The notes under the pieces are model-generated. The model saw only the letters and a list, made by a program, of their open reading frames with translations. It had not been told where the DNA came from and ran no database searches. Positions 1 through 26,337 of a stretch of 41,416 nucleotides of DNA are shown here, in pieces; the first letter of the stretch is position 1; the number at the start of each line of letters is the position of its first letter. The stretch lies in assembly GCA_011176615.1 (NCBI GenBank), contig DUEG01000015.1, positions 1 through 41,416 on the forward strand. Direction: 5' to 3'. The position numbers and the translations under genes were made by a program. The stretch comes from Anaerolineae bacterium (GTDB lineage: Bacteria; Chloroflexota; Anaerolineae; Anaerolineales; UBA11858).

Positions 1-391
1 GCGCCATGAATAGGGAGAATTATAGTGTTCGTAATTGTCCATTTCAAATATCCCTTCTTTTTTGACAGTTCGAAACAAAGCCATCAAACCGTTAACCAAA
101 TTCCGATTTAATTATTCGAAGTTGATATGAAATTCCTCGTAAATTTTATTATGTGTTCCTTTTTCTTTGACCAAAGTTCAGAAAAGTTATATGCGGTCTT
201 CTTTTTCACTCAATTATTGAGTAAAAGAAGGAAACTTTGTTTCCATATATTTCTTCGTATGATATTATAATATTATGTGTCTCAATCAGGGTGTATATCA
301 TCCAAGACATTTTAGCAATTAGCACAAAATATCATTTGCTTTTTTGTTATTGACTATATAATTGCAAATGATTATTTAAGGAGAAATTACT

Positions 392-2272
392 CTGGAAACT
401 CATAATACAACACATAATCTGCTCCCAGACGATAATGAGAAAACAGCACAATTAAAACCGGGGACAATCCTCGAGGGACGCTACTTGATTGAAGGTATTC
501 TAGGCGTTGGAGGGATGGGTGCCGTTTATAGCGCAAGGGACATGCGTTTTAATGTAGTGAAAAATGTCGCTGTAAAAGAGATGATCAACAAGGCTCGCAA
601 TGAACTAGTGCGTGAAACTATTATTAAAAACTTTGAACGCGAAGCGAACATTTTAGCAACACTTAGTCACCAAGCAATTCCAACCATTTATGATTACTTT
701 ACTCGGAATAACCGATCTTATTTGGTGATGGAATTGATCAATGGGAAAAACCTCGAATTGCTCATGGCAGAGAATAAAGGGTTTTTCCCTGAAACCCAAA
801 TAATTGCTTGGACTATTGAACTATGTGATGTCTTGACCCATTTACACAATCATCTCCCCACTCCAATTATTTTCCGAGACATGAAACCCGCAAATATTAT
901 TATTAATCAAGAAAATCATGTCGTTTTAGTGGATTTTGGAATTGCAAAAACCTTTCAGGCTGGAATAAAAGGAACCATGATAGGAACAGAGGGATATTCT
1001 CCACCTGAACAATACCGGGGCGAAGCGACCCCCCTCGTAGACATCTATGCACTTGGTGCAACCTTACATCACTTACTAACCAAAAAAGACCCTCGCGTTG
1101 AGGCTCCCTTCACATTTTCTGATAGACCTATACGAAAATTCAATCCAAATGTCTCAGAAGAATTTGAAGCATTAGTCAACAAAGCACTGCAGTACGATCC
1201 AGAAGCCCGATTTCAATCTGCTACTGAGATGAAGGACGCCCTTATGGGTGTTGCAAAGAAAACAGGTATTTTATCTGATGTATCTTCACCATTTGTAAGT
1301 TATATCAATAATCAAAACGTAAAGCCAGCTTGGGTTTTCGCATGCGAAGATGAAATTCGCGGAACACCATCTGTTTCTGATGGAGTGCTATATGTTGGTT
1401 CTTATGATAACAATTTATATGCATTAAATGCAGAAACAGGTGATTTTGTTTGGAAATATCCTACAGATGGCGGTATTGTTTGCAAACCAGCAATTTTCCA
1501 GAATAATGTATTCTTCGGTTCTGAAGATGGGCAATTACATGTCGTATCATCCCACTCCGGAAGAATAGTCTGGACTTATTACACTGACATGCCAATTCGC
1601 TCAAGCCCAATAATAGAAGAACAGCATGTTTTTATAGGCTCGGATGACGGTAATCTACATGTAGTAAATGCCAACAATGGACGTAGAGTATTGCTAATTG
1701 ATACAGGTTCACCAATTCGCTCTACACCCACTATTTTCAATGAATATGTTTACTTTAGCAATCAAGGGGGCGATTTCTGGTGTACGGACTTTAGAGGAAA
1801 CGTAAAATGGCGGACAAAGGCAAAAAGAGCTATTACAGGTTCCGCATATATTAGTGAAGATATTGTTTATTACAATTCAATGGATTCCACTCTTTACGCC
1901 GCAGATGCGCTCTCTGGATGGGTTATCTGGCGCTATCGTCTGGGTAAGGGGTCAATATCAACCCCCACAGGGATTGAACACTTCGTCTTTACTGGAAGCA
2001 TAGACCATAATATTTACGCGTTAGACAAGCGAACAGGGAAAGAAGTCTGGCGTTATACTACCGAACACCAAGTCACCGGGTCCCCTATTATTTACAAAGA
2101 CTCACTTTTCTGTGGAAGTGTTGATGGGAATTTGTATTGTCTAGAATACAAAACAGGGAGATTGCTTTGGCAGTATAAGACTGAAGGTCCAATTACAAGT
2201 ACACCCACAATTAATAATAATATGCTTTATTTAACTTCTTTGGATAATAAAGTCTATGCCATTCCAGTATAG
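392..2272 (+). CDS. Serine/threonine protein kinase with C-terminal PQQ-like beta-propeller
   Basis: GVGGMGAVY P-loop, VAVKEM lysine, FRDMKPANI catalytic loop, VDFG, GTEGYSPPEQY; then about 7-8 repeats of the GSxDGxLYxLxxxTGxxxW type. The ORF track starts at TTG 485, but the frame stays open upstream (GTILEGRYLIEG) to CTG 392, preceded by AAGGAGA; in-frame TAA at 377-379. Confidence 0.93.
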   Translation: METHNTTHNLLPDDNEKTAQLKPGTILEGRYLIEGILGVGGMGAVYSARDMRFNVVKNVAVKEMINKARNELVRETIIKNFEREANILATLSHQAIPTIYDYFTRNNRSYLVMELINGKNLELLMAENKGFFPETQIIAWTIELCDVLTHLHNHLPTPIIFRDMKPANIIINQENHVVLVDFGIAKTFQAGIKGTMIGTEGYSPPEQYRGEATPLVDIYALGATLHHLLTKKDPRVEAPFTFSDRPIRKFNPNVSEEFEALVNKALQYDPEARFQSATEMKDALMGVAKKTGILSDVSSPFVSYINNQNVKPAWVFACEDEIRGTPSVSDGVLYVGSYDNNLYALNAETGDFVWKYPTDGGIVCKPAIFQNNVFFGSEDGQLHVVSSHSGRIVWTYYTDMPIRSSPIIEEQHVFIGSDDGNLHVVNANNGRRVLLIDTGSPIRSTPTIFNEYVYFSNQGGDFWCTDFRGNVKWRTKAKRAITGSAYISEDIVYYNSMDSTLYAADALSGWVIWRYRLGKGSISTPTGIEHFVFTGSIDHNIYALDKRTGKEVWRYTTEHQVTGSPIIYKDSLFCGSVDGNLYCLEYKTGRLLWQYKTEGPITSTPTINNNMLYLTSLDNKVYAIPV

Positions 2273-2301: not shown

Positions 2302-3237
2302 GTGTTTAACTATATTAAGAAAATAATACAAAATATATATTCCGAAGGTAAAACAACATTTGGCACAGTTGAATCACCGCCTCATCATGCCAACATGGAC
2401 ACTAAGCCTCTTTCACCTGAAGACCTTAAACAAGTCCTGTTGCTTAAACCCAAAGAAAAAGAACCCAAGCAATTAATAGTATCAGCCAGACAATCCGTTG
2501 GGATGGAGCGAGATCATAATGAGGACTCAATATTTAGTCTTACAGTTAACCTAGGAAACAATACGGGTTCAACGCTATTTGGATTTTATATCGTAGCAGA
2601 TGGAATGGGGGGACATTTACATGGAGAAATTGCAAGTGCAACTGCAGTGCGTTCAATGTCCAATCATGTAATTAAAGAATTATATAATCCTTTATTCGGA
2701 GAAAAGCCATCTATTCCTAATGAATCAATAGCAGAGATCCTTAAAAAGGGAGTAATTAGCGCACATGAATCTATTCTCGAAAAAACAAGCGGTGGAGGCA
2801 CCACTTTAACTTCCATCTTTATTCTTAAAAGTCAAATGGTAATCACACACGTGGGAGATAGCCGTGTTTACAAAGTTGATAATAACGGTACGATGGAAAT
2901 ACTAACCCGTGATCACTCACTTGTAAATAGGCTAGTAGAACTTGGTCAAATTACTACGAAAGAAGCAGCGGTTCATCCCCAAAGAAATGTTTTATACCGG
3001 GCTCTTGGGCAAGGCGAACCTTTTGAACCGGATATAATTACTAGTCCACTTCCAGAAACCGGCTATTTACTCATCTGCTCAGATGGTTTATGGGGAGTTG
3101 TTCCAAAGGACAAAATTGGAAAAACTATCAGTGATATGAATAATCCTTTCAACGCAAGCAAAAAGTTAGTCGAGTTAGCGAATGCTGCTGGAGGTCCTGA
3201 TAATATTTCTGTGATTCTAATTAAATTATCTAATTGA
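2302..3237 (+). CDS. PP2C-family protein serine/threonine phosphatase
   Basis: PP2C motifs: VADGMGGHLHGE, HVGDSRVY, CSDGLWG, GGPDNISV; GTG start. Confidence 0.95.
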   Translation: MFNYIKKIIQNIYSEGKTTFGTVESPPHHANMDTKPLSPEDLKQVLLLKPKEKEPKQLIVSARQSVGMERDHNEDSIFSLTVNLGNNTGSTLFGFYIVADGMGGHLHGEIASATAVRSMSNHVIKELYNPLFGEKPSIPNESIAEILKKGVISAHESILEKTSGGGTTLTSIFILKSQMVITHVGDSRVYKVDNNGTMEILTRDHSLVNRLVELGQITTKEAAVHPQRNVLYRALGQGEPFEPDIITSPLPETGYLLICSDGLWGVVPKDKIGKTISDMNNPFNASKKLVELANAAGGPDNISVILIKLSN

Positions 3238-3253
3238 CAAAACAATAAAGACT

Positions 3254-4738
3254 ATGCCTTCAAAAATAGATTTATACAATCAATTAGGAATATCAAAAAA
3301 CGCAACTCCAGAGGAAATAAAACAAGCGTTTTTCCAATCTGCGCGTCGTCTGCATCCTGATGTAAACATCCAATCCAATGCCAATGAACAATTTCTATTG
3401 ATAAAAGAGGCTTATGAAATATTGTCTAATCCTCAAAAAAGAGCAAAATATGACAATAATTATATTCGCGAAATTACCAAATCACCCGTCAATATAGAAA
3501 TTCTATATAGCCGCAATGAAATCCTACGGCTTACCGAGAAACAGCTAATTTATACTCTTCTTGATATCCATTTTTACTCAGATAACGATCAAGAAACCGC
3601 TACGAGAATACCAATTAATGCTGCAATTGTACTAGATGTCTCTACATCAATGCGCGGATCTCGACTTCAAGCGATTAAAAGCACAACTGCCGAGATTATT
3701 CACAAACTAACTTCTAATGACATATTGTCAATTGTCAGTTTTAGTGACCGGAGCAAAGTAATCATTCCAGCGTCTCATCCTGATGCGGCACATAGTCTTG
3801 AACCCAATATTCGTCGATTACAAACTCATGGTGGAACAGAGATTTTTCAAGGTCTGCTAGCAGGTTTTTCTGAAATACGAAAAAATCTATCTGCACGCTA
3901 CCATAATCATATAATTCTTATCACAGATGGTAGAACTTATGGCGATGAAATTGCTTGTTTAGATTTAGCAGACCAATGTGCTTCTCTTGGTGTCGCTATT
4001 AGTTGTTTAGGAATTGGTAGCGAATGGAATGATGAATTTTTAGATGAACTTGCAAAACGCACTGGAGGAACAAGCAAGTATGTTGCAACATCACGGGGAA
4101 TTAATGATATTCTCCCTAATATATTTACAGAACTCGAACGGGTAGTAGCTGCTCGAATTGAATTTGATTTTAACCTGGGCACAGGGGTAGATTTGCTCTA
4201 TGCTTTTCGAATTCATCCGGAATTAGGAGTACTTCCATTAACATCACCCATCCAATTTGGCGGTTGCCCCAAAGATTCTTTCCAACGAATATTATTTGAA
4301 TTTCAAGTTTCACCGTTAAATCAAGATATAAAGCACTTTTTGCTACTTTCTGGAGAACTAAAGATTAATATTCCTCAAGTATCCGAATCAAATTATCAGA
4401 TTCCATTATCATTTATCCAAAAAGTGAGTAATTCTCCAGAACAGCCCATCCCTCCCCCACAACTCATTGTTGAATCAATGTCAAAATTAACTCTTTACCG
4501 AATGCATGAACGTGCTAATAAGTTTTTTGTGGAAGGAAAAATTGATGAAGCAAAAGAGCAACTTCAAAATCTAGCGACTCATCTCCTCTCAAAAGGAGAA
4601 AACAAACTTTCAAAAACTGTCCTCCTGGAAGTTGAACATCTTGAAAAGCAAAAACGCTACAGCGATTCAGGTAACAAAGAAATAAAATATGGTACTCGGG
4701 CATTATTATTGCCCAATAAGAATAATGCCGAGAGGTGA
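3254..4738 (+). CDS. J-domain (DnaJ-like) plus von Willebrand factor A domain fusion protein
   Basis: N-term J-domain with HPD (SARRLHPDVN...AYEILSNPQKRAKYD), then VWA with MIDAS-like DVSTSM, GGTEI and ITDG. Confidence 0.92.
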   Translation: MPSKIDLYNQLGISKNATPEEIKQAFFQSARRLHPDVNIQSNANEQFLLIKEAYEILSNPQKRAKYDNNYIREITKSPVNIEILYSRNEILRLTEKQLIYTLLDIHFYSDNDQETATRIPINAAIVLDVSTSMRGSRLQAIKSTTAEIIHKLTSNDILSIVSFSDRSKVIIPASHPDAAHSLEPNIRRLQTHGGTEIFQGLLAGFSEIRKNLSARYHNHIILITDGRTYGDEIACLDLADQCASLGVAISCLGIGSEWNDEFLDELAKRTGGTSKYVATSRGINDILPNIFTELERVVAARIEFDFNLGTGVDLLYAFRIHPELGVLPLTSPIQFGGCPKDSFQRILFEFQVSPLNQDIKHFLLLSGELKINIPQVSESNYQIPLSFIQKVSNSPEQPIPPPQLIVESMSKLTLYRMHERANKFFVEGKIDEAKEQLQNLATHLLSKGENKLSKTVLLEVEHLEKQKRYSDSGNKEIKYGTRALLLPNKNNAER

Positions 4739-5253
4739 ATATGATCAAGTGCCCAAATTGTAATCATGAAGAGCCATATGGCACCCTATTTTGTAGTAAA
4801 TGTGGTGCCCGATTAGTTCCTAACGATACTGAAAATACCGAAAACAATCAAAGTGGTTCTCAAATACCAAACTTTGAGGATACTAATATTTTAGACCGCC
4901 CTGTACCTCCTATAGATTTACTAGATTACCCTGCATTACTTTTCATTGTTTCATCTAATGTATATATTCCTATAGAAGAAGATAACGATTTTACATTAGG
5001 ACGAGTCTCAAAAGACCAACCACTTGTGCCTGATATTGATTTAACCCCTTATAACGCCTATGAAGAAGGAGTGTCGCGTCTCCATGCTTCTATTAAGTTC
5101 TCCAATGGAAATTGTATAATTACTGATCTCGGGTCTGTCAATGGCACCAAAATCAATGGGAAACGGATTATATCAAACCAGGCAATGAATTTATCCGATG
5201 GCGATATGATTTCTCTCGGTCAATTTAAAATGCTAGTAATCATAAACAATTGA
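4735..5253 (+). CDS. Zinc-ribbon plus FHA-domain protein
   Basis: N-term CPNCNHEEPYGTLFCSKCGARL; C-term FHA signature LGR...SRLHA...DLGSVNGTKINGKRI. Starts with a 4-nt GTGA overlap on the previous stop (alternative ATG at 4741). Confidence 0.9.
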   Translation: MNMIKCPNCNHEEPYGTLFCSKCGARLVPNDTENTENNQSGSQIPNFEDTNILDRPVPPIDLLDYPALLFIVSSNVYIPIEEDNDFTLGRVSKDQPLVPDIDLTPYNAYEEGVSRLHASIKFSNGNCIITDLGSVNGTKINGKRIISNQAMNLSDGDMISLGQFKMLVIINN

Positions 5254-5267
5254 GAATTGGAGGCATT

Positions 5268-5507
5268 ATGGCAATCCAGGCAATATTACACATAAAAAGC
5301 GAGGAACCAATAATGGGAGAACTTGATGATCTTCCTTCTCTGGGTGATACTTTGATTAAGGTAAATAATCCTAGGCAAAAAGATGGAAAAGATCTTTATT
5401 ATATTGAAATGGACGTGGTTACAGTTTATTGGCCAATTGAGAGATTAAATTTCATTGAAATACTACCAACCGAGGATGAAGAAATCATCGGTTTTGTCAG
5501 GGAGTAA
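5268..5507 (+). CDS. Conserved-looking hypothetical protein (about 80 aa)
   Basis: ORF tightly packed between the FHA gene and the response regulator; ATG 5268 follows GAATTGGAGG. Track start is 5250. Confidence 0.65.
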   Translation: MAIQAILHIKSEEPIMGELDDLPSLGDTLIKVNNPRQKDGKDLYYIEMDVVTVYWPIERLNFIEILPTEDEEIIGFVRE

Positions 5508-5510
5508 ATA

Positions 5511-6224
5511 ATGAAATATCAAACGAAAAAACGTCACTTGATACTTGTTGTCGATGACGAAAAAAGAATGGTCCGTTTTATCCGTTTAAACCTTGAACAC
5601 GATGGCTTCCAAGTATTAAGCGCCTATTCAGGTATGCAAGCACTTGACCGTGTTCGAACAGCATTGCCTGATTTGGTCTTATTAGATATTATGCTTCCAG
5701 ATTTAGATGGCTTTGAAGTATTACGCCGAATCCGAGAAGTAAGTTCTGTGCCAGTAATCATGCTCACAGCAAAAAGCGAGGAGGATGATCGTGTACGCGG
5801 GCTTGAAATGGGGGCAGACGACTATATTACAAAACCATTCAGCCCTCGAGAATTAGTCAGTAGGGTTAGAGCCGTCCTCCGTCGTATTGAAACATTAACA
5901 GATAGTACTTCTGATGTCATTGAAGTTGACGACCGCTTAAAATTAGATTTTGGGCGTAGAGAAATTTGGGTTGATGGCAAACTTACCAAACTAAGACCAA
6001 CTGAATACCGTCTACTCTATCATCTTGTTCAAAATGCTGGATGGGTTTTAACGCATGAACAACTGCTTACTAAAGTGTGGGGGTATGAATACCGAGATGA
6101 ACCTCATTATGTTCGCTTATATATCAACTATTTAAGGAAAAAAATCGAAAAAGATCCAGCAAATCCAAAATATATTCTCACAGAACGTGGAGTGGGATAT
6201 CGATTTGTAGATTTTCATAGATAA
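5511..6224 (+). CDS. OmpR/PhoB-family response regulator
   Basis: Receiver DD...LDIMLPD...K plus C-term winged helix ([26 protein letters not shown]...[14 protein letters not shown]...TERGVGYRF). Confidence 0.95.
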
Positions 6225-6377: not shown

Positions 6378-6818
6378 ATGGCAAATTTAACTCGATTTGA
6401 ACCTTTACATGAAATAATCTCTCTACGAGAAGCGATGGATCGATTATTTAACGATGCTTTTACTAGACCGCTGTCCCTTGTACCGGATTCGCGGCAGCCA
6501 CTAGTGGATATCTACCAAACAAAAGATGAAATAGTCGTAAAAGCCACGGTGCCCGGTGTTAAACCTGAAGACATTGACGTATCCATAACTAATGACCTTC
6601 TTACTATTAAAGGTGAATTTAAGGAAGAGAAGAAAATAGAAGAGGCAACCTATACTTTACAGGAACATCAATACGGTAAATTTGAGCGAGCGCTACCACT
6701 CCCGGTACCTGTGAAAACAGCCGATGCAAAAGCAACTTACAAAGATGGCGTCCTCACTTTGTATTTACCAAAAGTAGAAGAGGTTCGTCCAAAAACAATA
6801 AAGGTCAACGTAAAATAA
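6378..6818 (+). CDS. Hsp20/alpha-crystallin small heat shock protein
   Basis: PLVDIYQTKDEIVVKATVPGVKPEDIDVSITNDLLTIKGE...ATYKDGVLTLYLPK; ATG 6378 has AAGGAGGT upstream. Confidence 0.95.
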   Translation: MANLTRFEPLHEIISLREAMDRLFNDAFTRPLSLVPDSRQPLVDIYQTKDEIVVKATVPGVKPEDIDVSITNDLLTIKGEFKEEKKIEEATYTLQEHQYGKFERALPLPVPVKTADAKATYKDGVLTLYLPKVEEVRPKTIKVNVK

Positions 6819-9828: not shown

Positions 9829-10875
9829 ATGATTGATAACAGCATTCTTAACGATCGATATCAATTAATTGAACCTCGAGGTAAGGGTGGTATGGCAATC
9901 GTTTATCGAGGTAAAGATCTAATGCTGGAAAGGACAGTAGCGGTAAAGATTCTTAGACAAAGCTTCTCACAAAGCCCAGCCTTCCGAGAAAGATTCCGTC
10001 AAGAAGCTAAGGCTGCTGCTAATCTATCGCATCCTAATATCGTAACGGTCTACGATTTTGGATGGGATAAGGATTATTTCTTTATTGTTATGGAATATAT
10101 TCCTGGTATCGATCTGAAGAAATGGGTTCATTATCATGGAAGATTATCGCAAAAGGAAAGTCTATCATTAATAATTCAGGCGTGTGCAGGAATTGGCTAT
10201 GCGCATCGAGCAGGTCTCGTCCACTGTGATATCAAACCTCAAAATATGCTTGTCACACCTGATAAACGGTTAATGGTAACGGATTTTGGTATTGCACGAG
10301 CACTTGCATCTATTCACCCAGGAGAAAAATTAGATATTGTTTGGGGCTCTCCTCAATATATTTCTCCCGAACAAGCCGCCGGTTTAGCCCCTTCACCAGC
10401 ATCTGATGTTTATAGTTTAGGCGTTGTTCTCTACGAATTATTAACTGCGAAATTGCCATTCACTTCACAAAACCCAACTGAATTGGTACATTTACATCGT
10501 GAAGTTATCCCCACTTCCCCGAAGTCAATCAATCCCCAAATATCAAACGAATTAGACACTATAATCATGAAGGTTCTTGCAAAAGAGCCATCAGCGCGAT
10601 ACCGTACAGCCGATCAATTAGGTCGAGTTCTTATCACAATTACAAAAGACAATACTCTTGTTCCATCATCTCCCCCTAAAAATCCTTTTACTACCCGAAG
10701 AATAATTCCCTCTGCATCGCCGATACAATCAGATGATTTTGCGGAAAAATCTACGTCAGCCATTAATATTGATTGGATCACTATCTTATTAGGATTTATC
10801 TCATTACTTGCTCTTGGGGGACTTATTCCATTTTGGTTATGGGTCTATTTGCGCATAAACCCGCCTTTTTCATAA
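9829..10875 (+). CDS. Serine/threonine protein kinase with C-terminal transmembrane segment
   Basis: GKGGMAIVYRG, VAVKIL, HCDIKPQN, DFGIA, GSPQYISPEQ; C-term hydrophobic WITILLGFISLLALGGLIPFWLWVYL. Confidence 0.96.
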   Translation: MIDNSILNDRYQLIEPRGKGGMAIVYRGKDLMLERTVAVKILRQSFSQSPAFRERFRQEAKAAANLSHPNIVTVYDFGWDKDYFFIVMEYIPGIDLKKWVHYHGRLSQKESLSLIIQACAGIGYAHRAGLVHCDIKPQNMLVTPDKRLMVTDFGIARALASIHPGEKLDIVWGSPQYISPEQAAGLAPSPASDVYSLGVVLYELLTAKLPFTSQNPTELVHLHREVIPTSPKSINPQISNELDTIIMKVLAKEPSARYRTADQLGRVLITITKDNTLVPSSPPKNPFTTRRIIPSASPIQSDDFAEKSTSAINIDWITILLGFISLLALGGLIPFWLWVYLRINPPFS

Positions 10876-23330: not shown

Positions 23331-25904
23331 TTAATCTAATTTTTCATTCCTTTTAGTATGTTTTTTTATCGGTTTTGGGGGTTCTAATGCAGCGTCCAAT
23401 ACCTGATCAACAGTCTCGACAAAAATAAACTTAATCGACTCCTTTACTTCTTCAGGTAAATCCTCGAGATCCGCTTTGTTTCGTTTTGGCAAAATAATTG
23501 TATCCAAGCCGAATCTGTGAGCGGCTAATACTTTCTCTTTAATTCCTCCAACTGGTAATACTTGACCACGCAGGGTAATTTCTCCTGTCATTCCAACTTT
23601 CGATTTTACTGGTCTTCCTGAAAACAACGAAACCAATGCTGTTGCTATTGTTACACCAGCGGATGGACCATCTTTTGGCTGGGCACCAGCGGGAATGTGT
23701 AAATGTATATCCGAATGTTCGAAGAAATTTGTCTCAAGATTCAATTTATCTGCTCGTGAACGCACGAAGGATAAAGCAGCTTTAGCAGACTCTTGCATAA
23801 CATCCCCTAATTGTCCCGTCATTTGGAATCCCTTGCTTCCTGGCATCCGCGTAGCCTCAATAAACAATACTTCACCACCAGTTGGTGTCCAAGCCAATCC
23901 AGTAGCAACACCAGGAATAGATGTTCGAATTGCAGCCTCCTCAGGACCATAATATTTTGGTCTTCCGAGAAATTCACTAACAATTTTAGGGGTTATTTCA
24001 ACACTGACATGCTTGTCTTCTGCAATTCGTGTGGCTACCTTTCGGCAGACTGCACCAATTCCTCGTTCCAAGCCACGAACGCCTGCTTCTCTCGTATAAG
24101 ACCTTATTATCTTTAAAAGACTCCCGTCAGTAAATGATATTTCTTCTTGTTTCAAACCATTTTCACGAATTTGACGAGGAATTAGGTACCCCCTTGCAAT
24201 TTTCACTTTCTCCCCTTCAGTATAACCTGATAGTGTGATAATCTCCATTCGATCTCTCAGTGGTATCGGGATCGCGTCTAACCAATTTGCTGTGGTAATA
24301 AACATCACTTGAGAAAGATCGAATGCAACTTCTAGGTAGTGATCACGAAATTCCCCATTTTGCTCAGGATCTAAAACTTCCAACAAAGCAGAGGCGGGGT
24401 CACCTTGAAAACTCGTGCTTAGTTTATCGATTTCATCGAGCATAAACACGGGATTATTTGATTCCACTCTTCTTATCGCCTGCAAAATTCTTCCAGGCAT
24501 TGCCCCAATATAGGTACGACGATGCCCGCGTATCTCGGCTTCATCACGCACACCCCCCAATGAAATTCGTGTAAACTTCCTTCCCATTGCACGAGCAATT
24601 GATCTTCCGAGCGATGTTTTTCCTACGCCAGGAGGACCAACAAAGCACAAAATGACACCTTCGCGTATATGCCTAATCTCATCATCGTATGGGGTAGTAA
24701 TCTCTTCTTTTCGTTCAATTCTTAACTTACGGACAGCAAGAAATTCGAGAATACGCTCTTTAATATCTTCAAGCCCATAATGGTCATGGTCAAGAACTTC
24801 TCTAGCATGCTTGATATCAAGATCATCTTGAGTGCCTTTAGACCACGGTAATGAAACAAGCCAATCCAGATAAGTACGAATCACGCCATATTCTGCTGCG
24901 GCTGTCGGAAGTCGCGATAACCTATCTAGTTCGTGCTTTGCTTGTTTTTCTGCCTCTTCAGGCAATTTCGCATCTTCGATGCGCTTACGGAATTCTTCTA
25001 CCTCAACCGTTTGTTCATCCCCCTCACCAAGTTCTTTACGAATAGCCTTCAATTGTTCCCGCAGGAAATATTCCCTTTGAACTTTCTCTATCTCAGATCT
25101 TGCTTCATTTTGGATTTTTTTCCCGATTTCCAAAACCTCAATCTCATGCGCCAACAACCCAACCAATTTATGCAATTTGTCCTTGACAGAATCAAGTTCC
25201 AATATCTCTTGCGAATCTTCTAGCTCCATGCGCTGAAAATTTGCAATTGTATATACAACTTGTATCGGATTCTCCAGCGCTAGGATTGATTCAATCAGTT
25301 CTCTTGGAATAGAAGGAACCATCTCCGCTATATGAGCAAACTGCTCTTTAGCATTTCTTGCCAATGCCTCGACTTCCAAATTTTCTTCAATGGTTTCGGG
25401 AATAAGTTTTATCCTTGCTTTCAGGTAAGGTTCTTCCTGCAAATATTCTTCCACCTGAAATCTCCGAGCACCTTGAATCAATAAGCGGATTGTCCCATCA
25501 GGGGCACGAAACAATCGATGGACAGTTGCTATAGTTCCCACTTCATATAAATCATCAGGCAACGGCGTTTCCAATTCTGGCTTCTTTGAAGCAATCAACC
25601 CAATCAAACGATTGTCACTTGCCATCACATCGTCAATTAATCGAATAGACCGAGGTTGACCAATTGTTAAGGGAACAGCCGTTTCTGGATAAACAACTAA
25701 CCCACGTAAAGGCAAAATTGGTAGTTCTGAAGGTAGATCATCAATCGCTTTATTCTTAGTTTCATTACTTTCCTGATTGTCTTTACTTTCATCTATTACT
25801 TTTGGAACAATAGATTTAAGGACAAAATCATCAAAGCTCAATTTTGCATTATCCATCCTATTAATCAATTTTTGATACTTCAGATTCCATTTTATTATTG
25901 ACAT
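23331..25904 (-). CDS. lon: Lon protease (ATP-dependent, S16)
   Basis: [48 protein letters not shown], catalytic [33 protein letters not shown]. Start uncertain (MDNAKLSF is also plausible). Confidence 0.97.
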
Positions 25905-25911
25905 ATTCTAT

Positions 25912-26337
25912 TCACTGATCAATCCAAATTCTTTGTGGTTCTGCTTTGGGTAATATGACCTTTAGAAATCCCTCTTGGTATTCAGCAACGATTTGTTCAG
26001 AAAGAATTAAACATGGCAAATTAACCTGGATTATAAAAAACCCAAAATTAATTTCCATTTGCTGATATGCACGTTTTTCAGCATCATCCTTCCGGATACC
26101 CCGAATAATTAGTAATTGACCATCCAACGTAATTGCAAAATCGTTTCCGTTCATTCCAGCAATCTCAACCCGTACTACAACCTCATTCTCAGTTTCATAG
26201 ACATCAGTCGGTGGTCTCCACTTATAGGAATGCTGGATTATTTGCCAATGAATGCCTTGAAAATTGTTTTCTCGGCGTTCCTTTGATACTATTCCCTCCC
26301 CCGAACGGGATTTTTCTACTAAAATCAATCTAGCCAT
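25912..26337 (-). CDS. Hsp20/alpha-crystallin family protein
   Basis: WRPPTDVYETENEVVVRVEIAGMNGNDFAITLDGQLLIIRGIRK...EYQEGFLKVILPKA. Confidence 0.92.
   Translation of the reverse strand: MARLILVEKSRSGEGIVSKERRENNFQGIHWQIIQHSYKWRPPTDVYETENEVVVRVEIAGMNGNDFAITLDGQLLIIRGIRKDDAEKRAYQQMEINFGFFIIQVNLPCLILSEQIVAEYQEGFLKVILPKAEPQRIWIDQ

Follow-up and report, generated by a model that had tools for sequence, protein, structure and literature searches.

The window, meaning the whole stretch of 41,416 nucleotides that was analysed, contains a tight run of six genes that encode, in order, a kinase with a beta-propeller, a PP2C phosphatase, a protein joining a J-domain to a VWA domain (J-VWA), a Zn-ribbon-FHA protein, a protein of 80 amino acids and an OmpR-type regulator, and that is followed by a gene for HSP20. 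Their positions, and those of the features within J-VWA, are collected in Table 1.

Table 1. Genes of the J-VWA operon, and features of the J-VWA protein, with their positions in the window
Feature	Position	Strand	Basis or remark
Ser/Thr kinase with C-terminal PQQ-type beta-propeller	392..2272	+	Pfam Pkinase 2e-41
PP2C phosphatase	2302..3237	+	Stp1_PP2C 6.1e-63; catalytic motifs kept across family
J-VWA protein, ArnB-like scaffold (modelled) with N-terminal J-domain	3254..4738	+	494 aa; start ATG
J-domain, residues 1-74	3254..3475	+	Pfam DnaJ E 4.7e-21; AF2 helices
HPD motif, residues 34-36	3353..3361	+	HPD in 116/119 J-VWA proteins with detectable J
VWA domain, residues 121-296	3614..4141	+	Pfam VWA 1e-18; MIDAS D128/S130/S132/T195/D225
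Beta-sandwich half, residues 297-392 (other strands 79-107)	4142..4429	+	AF2; ArnB fold match
C-terminal helical bundle, residues 403-483	4460..4702	+	AF2; ArnB fold match
T481 codon, candidate phospho-switch in K-x-IKYG-T-R-A-L	4694..4696	+	Thr in 58/58 homologues
Zn-ribbon-FHA protein, ArnA-like	4741..5253	+	FHA 1.5e-15; ArnA best PDB profile match
79-80-aa conserved protein, predicted Sm/LSm-like fold	5268..5507	+	AF2 pLDDT 89.2
OmpR-type response regulator, MtrA/RpaB/YycF-like	5511..6224	+	phospho-Asp motif in 102/102 relatives
HSP20 small heat-shock protein, downstream of operon	6378..6818	+	Pfam HSP20 9.3e-21; ORF from TTG 6342

The J-VWA protein and its operon

The sequence-only reading of this DNA had recognized an HPD-containing J-domain and a MIDAS-type VWA domain in a single frame, and this is borne out by the Pfam matches (DnaJ over residues 6-67, VWA over residues 124-286) and by the residues that do not vary. 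In an alignment of 18 diverse J-VWA relatives the HPD and all MIDAS residues (D128-x-S130-x-S132, T195 and D225) are invariant, the latter also in a second alignment (A3), and the metal site on which that reading depended is intact, with all five residues present in the window protein. An AlphaFold2 model of J-VWA, made from an alignment of 58 homologues (mean pLDDT 90.8), has J-type helices at residues 7-11, 19-33, 43-58 and 60-74 followed by an alternating VWA; the segment on whose fold the earlier reading had staked itself is modelled as a J fold. No Pfam match to the zinc finger or the C-terminal substrate domains of DnaJ was found in the window protein, and as far as sequence can tell it falls within the definition of a class C J-protein.

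The neighbouring genes are conserved in their own motifs. Translation of the kinase probably begins at CTG 392, which follows AAGGAG (window 378-394), since starting at the first ATG, GTG or TTG codon (TTG 485) would remove the first strand of the kinase fold. Its catalytic loop reads FRD, not HRD, in all 103 relatives, and DFG is kept in 102 of them. The PP2C motifs are complete in 102 of 113 relatives, and the four zinc-ligand cysteines of the Zn-ribbon-FHA protein are present in 115 of 116; the reading frame of the latter opens at GTG 4735, and ATG 4741 agrees with the alignment. The 80-residue protein gives a five-stranded AlphaFold2 model for which the Foldseek matches listed are of the Sm/LSm type (best E 5e-3), a resemblance at the level of fold only, and the window copy matches no Pfam family and no PDB sequence. 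This protein is highly conserved, and may give a phospho-signalling operon an Sm-like member. The regulator is of the MtrA/RpaB/WalR type, nearest to the MtrA, RpaB and YycF models with scores below their cut-offs.

That neither dnaK nor grpE lies in the window had also been noted earlier, and this agrees with the annotated window genes and with genome searches that place both elsewhere. In the same genome, contig C81 carries a grpE-dnaK-dnaJ cluster, C125 encodes a further DnaK, and C77 encodes a CbpA-like J-protein. The genome thus encodes, in two DnaK proteins and GrpE, candidate partners for J-VWA, as the proposed recruitment of Hsp70 would call for.

Distribution of the fusion and history of its J-domain

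Full-length J-VWA is present in about 100 of 151 genomes of the same order, as counted among the matches listed in a genome search; these relatives are mostly 34-48% identical and, again among the matches listed, fall in 11 of the 15 families of the order. An independent scan of named genomes, made with alignment A2 because the 18-member A1 was too diverse for scanning, returned 484 relatives, and the best 80 of these were analysed as loci. All 80 named loci have J and VWA in one chain; by their titles they belong to Chloroflexota, mainly Anaerolineae, and include the cultured Anaerolinea thermolimosa IMO-1. The six genes occur complete and in order in 72 of these best 80, and the other eight are mostly short contigs or flanks. 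Recurrence of the fusion in so many same-order genomes and in every named locus is far above chance, and rules out an assembly artefact or a chance frame. A tblastn search of plasmids with J-VWA found matches to the VWA alone, all of them short of 80% query coverage; beyond the same-order genomes, the scan for the fusion covered these plasmids and the best 80 of the 484 loci, and a restriction of the fusion to Chloroflexota is not claimed. The domains of J-VWA, the ArnAB system and J-proteins are each known; of the conserved J-VWA fusion, or of a Chloroflexota operon of this kind, no description was found in the open-access literature searched.

Within the J-domain, Y/F at position 25 and F at position 47 (E. 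coli DnaJ numbering) are kept in J-VWA. Two further positions are altered: position 26, which is R in 30/30 canonical J-domains of the same phylum, is F, R, H, L or Y in J-VWA, and position 48, K in 30/30 of the canonical domains, is L in 90 of 116 J-VWA proteins. Pairing with DnaK may therefore be weak or selective. These same changes would also fit a J-like segment whose role lies in binding or structure and which does little through Hsp70, and so would the loss of J or of HPD in several lineages that retain the operon. A purely structural role, however, would not explain why HPD persists over great divergence in nearly every J-VWA protein with a detectable J (Table 1), and a J-domain of this kind is considered very unlikely.

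The lineages without J or without HPD were placed on a tree of the core. Family f2 keeps the operon but has no J, and the same holds for five operons from other, Chloroflexia-like families of the phylum; with the root of this tree uncertain, such J-less families are compatible either with loss of J or with never having had it. In the f10, f20 and f24 lineages HPD has been lost with the rest of the operon in place. Five loci (L106, L109, L110, L059 and L072) have a J segment lacking HPD and an intact operon, and are natural dead-J variants. Retention of the operon in several lineages that lack J, or whose J lacks HPD, marks the J-domain as an addition to a module older than itself, and the core can work without Hsp70. 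Late addition of J-domains has been described for class C proteins (PMC8215388). In a tree of J-domains, all 45 from J-VWA lie on one side of a split from DnaJ and CbpA (support 93/84; recovered in 96% of bootstrap trees), which suggests that the J-domain of J-VWA probably had a single origin, a conclusion that the shortness of the domain and the presence of long branches keep from being firm.

Resemblance to ArnA-ArnB and to other systems

Among the closest known systems is ArnA-ArnB of the Sulfolobus archaellum regulatory network (PDB 8s05, 5a8i; paralogue 5a8j). There, the kinase ArnC phosphorylates threonines in the C-terminal helical bundle of ArnB, the FHA domain of ArnA binds the phosphorylated threonines, and the ArnA Zn finger docks on the ArnB beta-sandwich and bundle; the ArnB core in turn resembles Sec23/Sec24 (PMC12852372, PMC6509490). 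J-VWA was compared with ArnB by a Foldseek search of its model against the PDB and by profile searches for sequence. The top structural match is 4fx5, a Catenulispora VWA protein that aligns by sequence with the VWA core of J-VWA and not with its J-domain; 4fx5 and E. coli YfbK have the same tripartite core as J-VWA and an ArnB-like architecture (PMC12852372). Next comes ArnB itself in the ArnAB complex 8s05 (target TM 0.76), with 424 alignment columns against the 381 residues of 8s05_A, and then the ArnB paralogue vWA2 (5a8j; target TM 0.69), nearly the whole target being aligned in either case. By sequence, the VWA part of the J-VWA family profile matches ArnB (E 1.3e-23). As modelled, the core of J-VWA is ArnB/Sec23-24-like and has the tripartite fold of ArnB, with a VWA domain inserted in a beta-sandwich and a helical bundle at the C-terminus.

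The Zn-finger-FHA partner has its counterpart in the gene directly 3' of J-VWA. ArnA is the best PDB match of the Zn-ribbon-FHA profile (E 5.6e-16), aligned over positions 3-165 of 171 through both Zn finger and FHA, while the other PDB matches listed align by the FHA part only; some caution applies to this ranking, as the PDB may contain few Zn-ribbon-FHA proteins. In the C-terminal bundle of J-VWA, T481 is the only Ser/Thr that is invariant in the 58 homologues, and is followed by R482 (57/58) and, at +3, L484 (54/58). An FHA domain could plausibly bind a phosphothreonine that has Leu at +3, and the conservation pattern hints at FHA binding that would depend on phosphorylation of T481. The two systems further have in common a Hanks kinase and a Ser/Thr phosphatase in the circuit, with C-terminal threonines as the candidate switch.

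The two systems also differ. ArnB_C of Pfam/InterPro is unmatched in the window J-VWA up to E 1 and is not among the 25 most frequent families of the 58 homologues, and the phosphatase is a PP2C, whereas that of ArnAB is a PP2A. Unlike ArnAB, the system is bacterial, carries an added J-domain, has a kinase with a beta-propeller in place of the OB/TPR-like region of the Arn kinase, and is encoded in a single operon that includes genes for a response regulator and an Sm-like protein. Because ArnB_C is unmatched and the phosphatase differs, the system is filed as ArnAB-like, not as ArnAB, though fold and partner architecture are common to both. The earlier identification of a VWA domain stands but was incomplete, and the interpretation built on it is supported in part; it had missed the ArnB-type core, the ArnA-like partner, the invariant T481, the conserved operon and the lineages in which that operon persists with J or HPD lacking.

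Other systems share single elements. In class C J-proteins such as DjlA and HscB an HPD J-domain is likewise joined to another module, and the DnaJ zinc finger and C-terminal substrate domains are likewise lacking; unlike theirs, the J-domain of J-VWA is joined to an ArnB-type scaffold (as modelled) within a phospho-signalling operon. Kinase, PP2C and VWA genes are linked in the TerY-P triad. They are linked also in the GAP1-N2 systems described by Kaur et al. 2020 (PMC7159879), and some of those loci additionally carry a gene for an FNIII protein with a fused DnaJ domain. The J-VWA operon differs from both in having no GTPase, MoxR or TerY match and in having J and VWA in one chain. Assignment to the TerY-P triad was rejected, no TerY model having matched the window J-VWA, as was assignment to a MoxR-vWA ternary system, no AAA+ match having been found among the eight genes scanned around J-VWA. 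AfsK of Streptomyces is, like the operon kinase, a Hanks kinase with a C-terminal PQQ-type propeller; unlike AfsK, the operon kinase has FRD in place of HRD and scores 180.7 bits with the AfsK model, whose cut-off is 1300. The threonine-phosphorylation pathway of T6SS was dismissed on a score of 33.3 bits for TIGR03354 (TagH/Fha), with a cut-off of 120.25, and a known anti-phage defence system on the lack of any PADLOC model match for J-VWA. The PADLOC matches of the operon kinase are mainly to kinase models, over the kinase domain.

Phosphorylation, Hsp70 and the possible output of the operon

The best reading of these findings, favoured by a little over even chances, is that J-VWA has the central place among the products of a six-gene operon for phospho-signalling, and acts as an ArnAB-like scaffold that is switched by phosphorylation and recruits Hsp70 to a bound partner. 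We infer both the gating by phosphorylation and the stimulation of Hsp70; the kinase/PP2C/FHA operon makes phosphorylation control of J-VWA likely. By analogy with ArnAB and with J-proteins in general, the steps might run as follows. The beta-propeller kinase would phosphorylate the C-terminal bundle of J-VWA, with T481 as the leading candidate, and PP2C would reverse this. The Zn-ribbon-FHA protein, docked weakly on J-VWA by its ribbon, would bind tightly through its FHA domain after phosphorylation, as ArnA does with ArnB, and the scaffold would be rearranged by this binding in a way that determines what is accessible to the MIDAS face or to the J-domain. The J-domain would deliver DnaK-ATP to the bound partner, which Hsp70 could then remodel or release. 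The operon's own response regulator would carry the output, and its targets might include stress genes, for instance the adjoining HSP20. Against this reading, T481 belongs to the final helix of the model and may have a structural role.

Without such gating, J-VWA could be an ordinary class C co-chaperone in which the J-domain calls in DnaK so that clients of the VWA scaffold are folded or assembled. Conservation of HPD and of the core J contacts, the grpE-dnaK-dnaJ genes of the genome and the precedent of late J add-ons among class C proteins would all suit this explanation, which nevertheless is quite unlikely, as the strict kinase/PP2C/FHA operon, the ArnA-like partner and the invariant threonine indicate that phosphorylation matters. 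Both an ungated co-chaperone and a non-functional J-domain are less likely than either the ArnAB-like switch or a sensor of chaperone load.

Such a sensor is the main rival, and would have the signalling complex itself as the client of the J-domain. Free DnaK on J-VWA would hold one state; misfolded proteins would draw DnaK off and free J-VWA, the balance of kinase and PP2C would shift, and the regulator would induce stress genes. Titration of DnaK is an established logic in other bacteria, the last gene of the operon encodes a DNA-binding regulator, and an HSP20 gene comes directly 3' of the operon, both in the window and in 27 of the best 80 named loci (out of 484), at 99-266 bp from the regulator in the 26 loci measured. 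Most loci, however, have no HSP20 linkage, and the Chloroflexia-like operons examined (stretch read) have neither J nor a linked HSP20, so that a J-less version of the switch exists. A sensor of chaperone load is on balance unlikely.

In the scaffold favoured above, a single protein seems to couple chaperone action to signalling by phosphorylation. A more specific form of it is put forward tentatively: J-VWA may be a phosphorylation-gated Hsp70 recruiter, in which kinase, phosphatase and FHA binding set when the J-domain hands the bound partner to DnaK, so that Hsp70 would actively reset a bacterial Ser/Thr signalling complex or let the complex sense chaperone load. Should the mechanism prove right, gene order and architecture would tie a bacterial J-protein into a switch made up of Ser/Thr kinase, phosphatase and FHA protein, and how signalling decides where Hsp70 acts would become directly testable with six small genes. 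Nature has already supplied the experiments, in lineages whose J-domain is present, dead or missing, and the ArnAB/Sec23-24-type scaffold, studied so far in Sulfolobus, would be extended to a conserved operon of a bacterial phylum.

Several related genes lie outside the operon. The window has a second Ser/Thr kinase gene at 9829-10875, and kinases akin to it are found several kb from the J-VWA operon in L038, L041 and L045, among others. A Lon protease adjoins another HSP20 gene on the minus strand (window 23331-26337). Finally, four same-order genomes (L063, L064, L065 and L066) have a second gene cluster, without J, that encodes up to three VWA proteins, a PP2C, a kinase and Zn-ribbon-FHA proteins, together with a protein of about 950 amino acids with two FHA matches.
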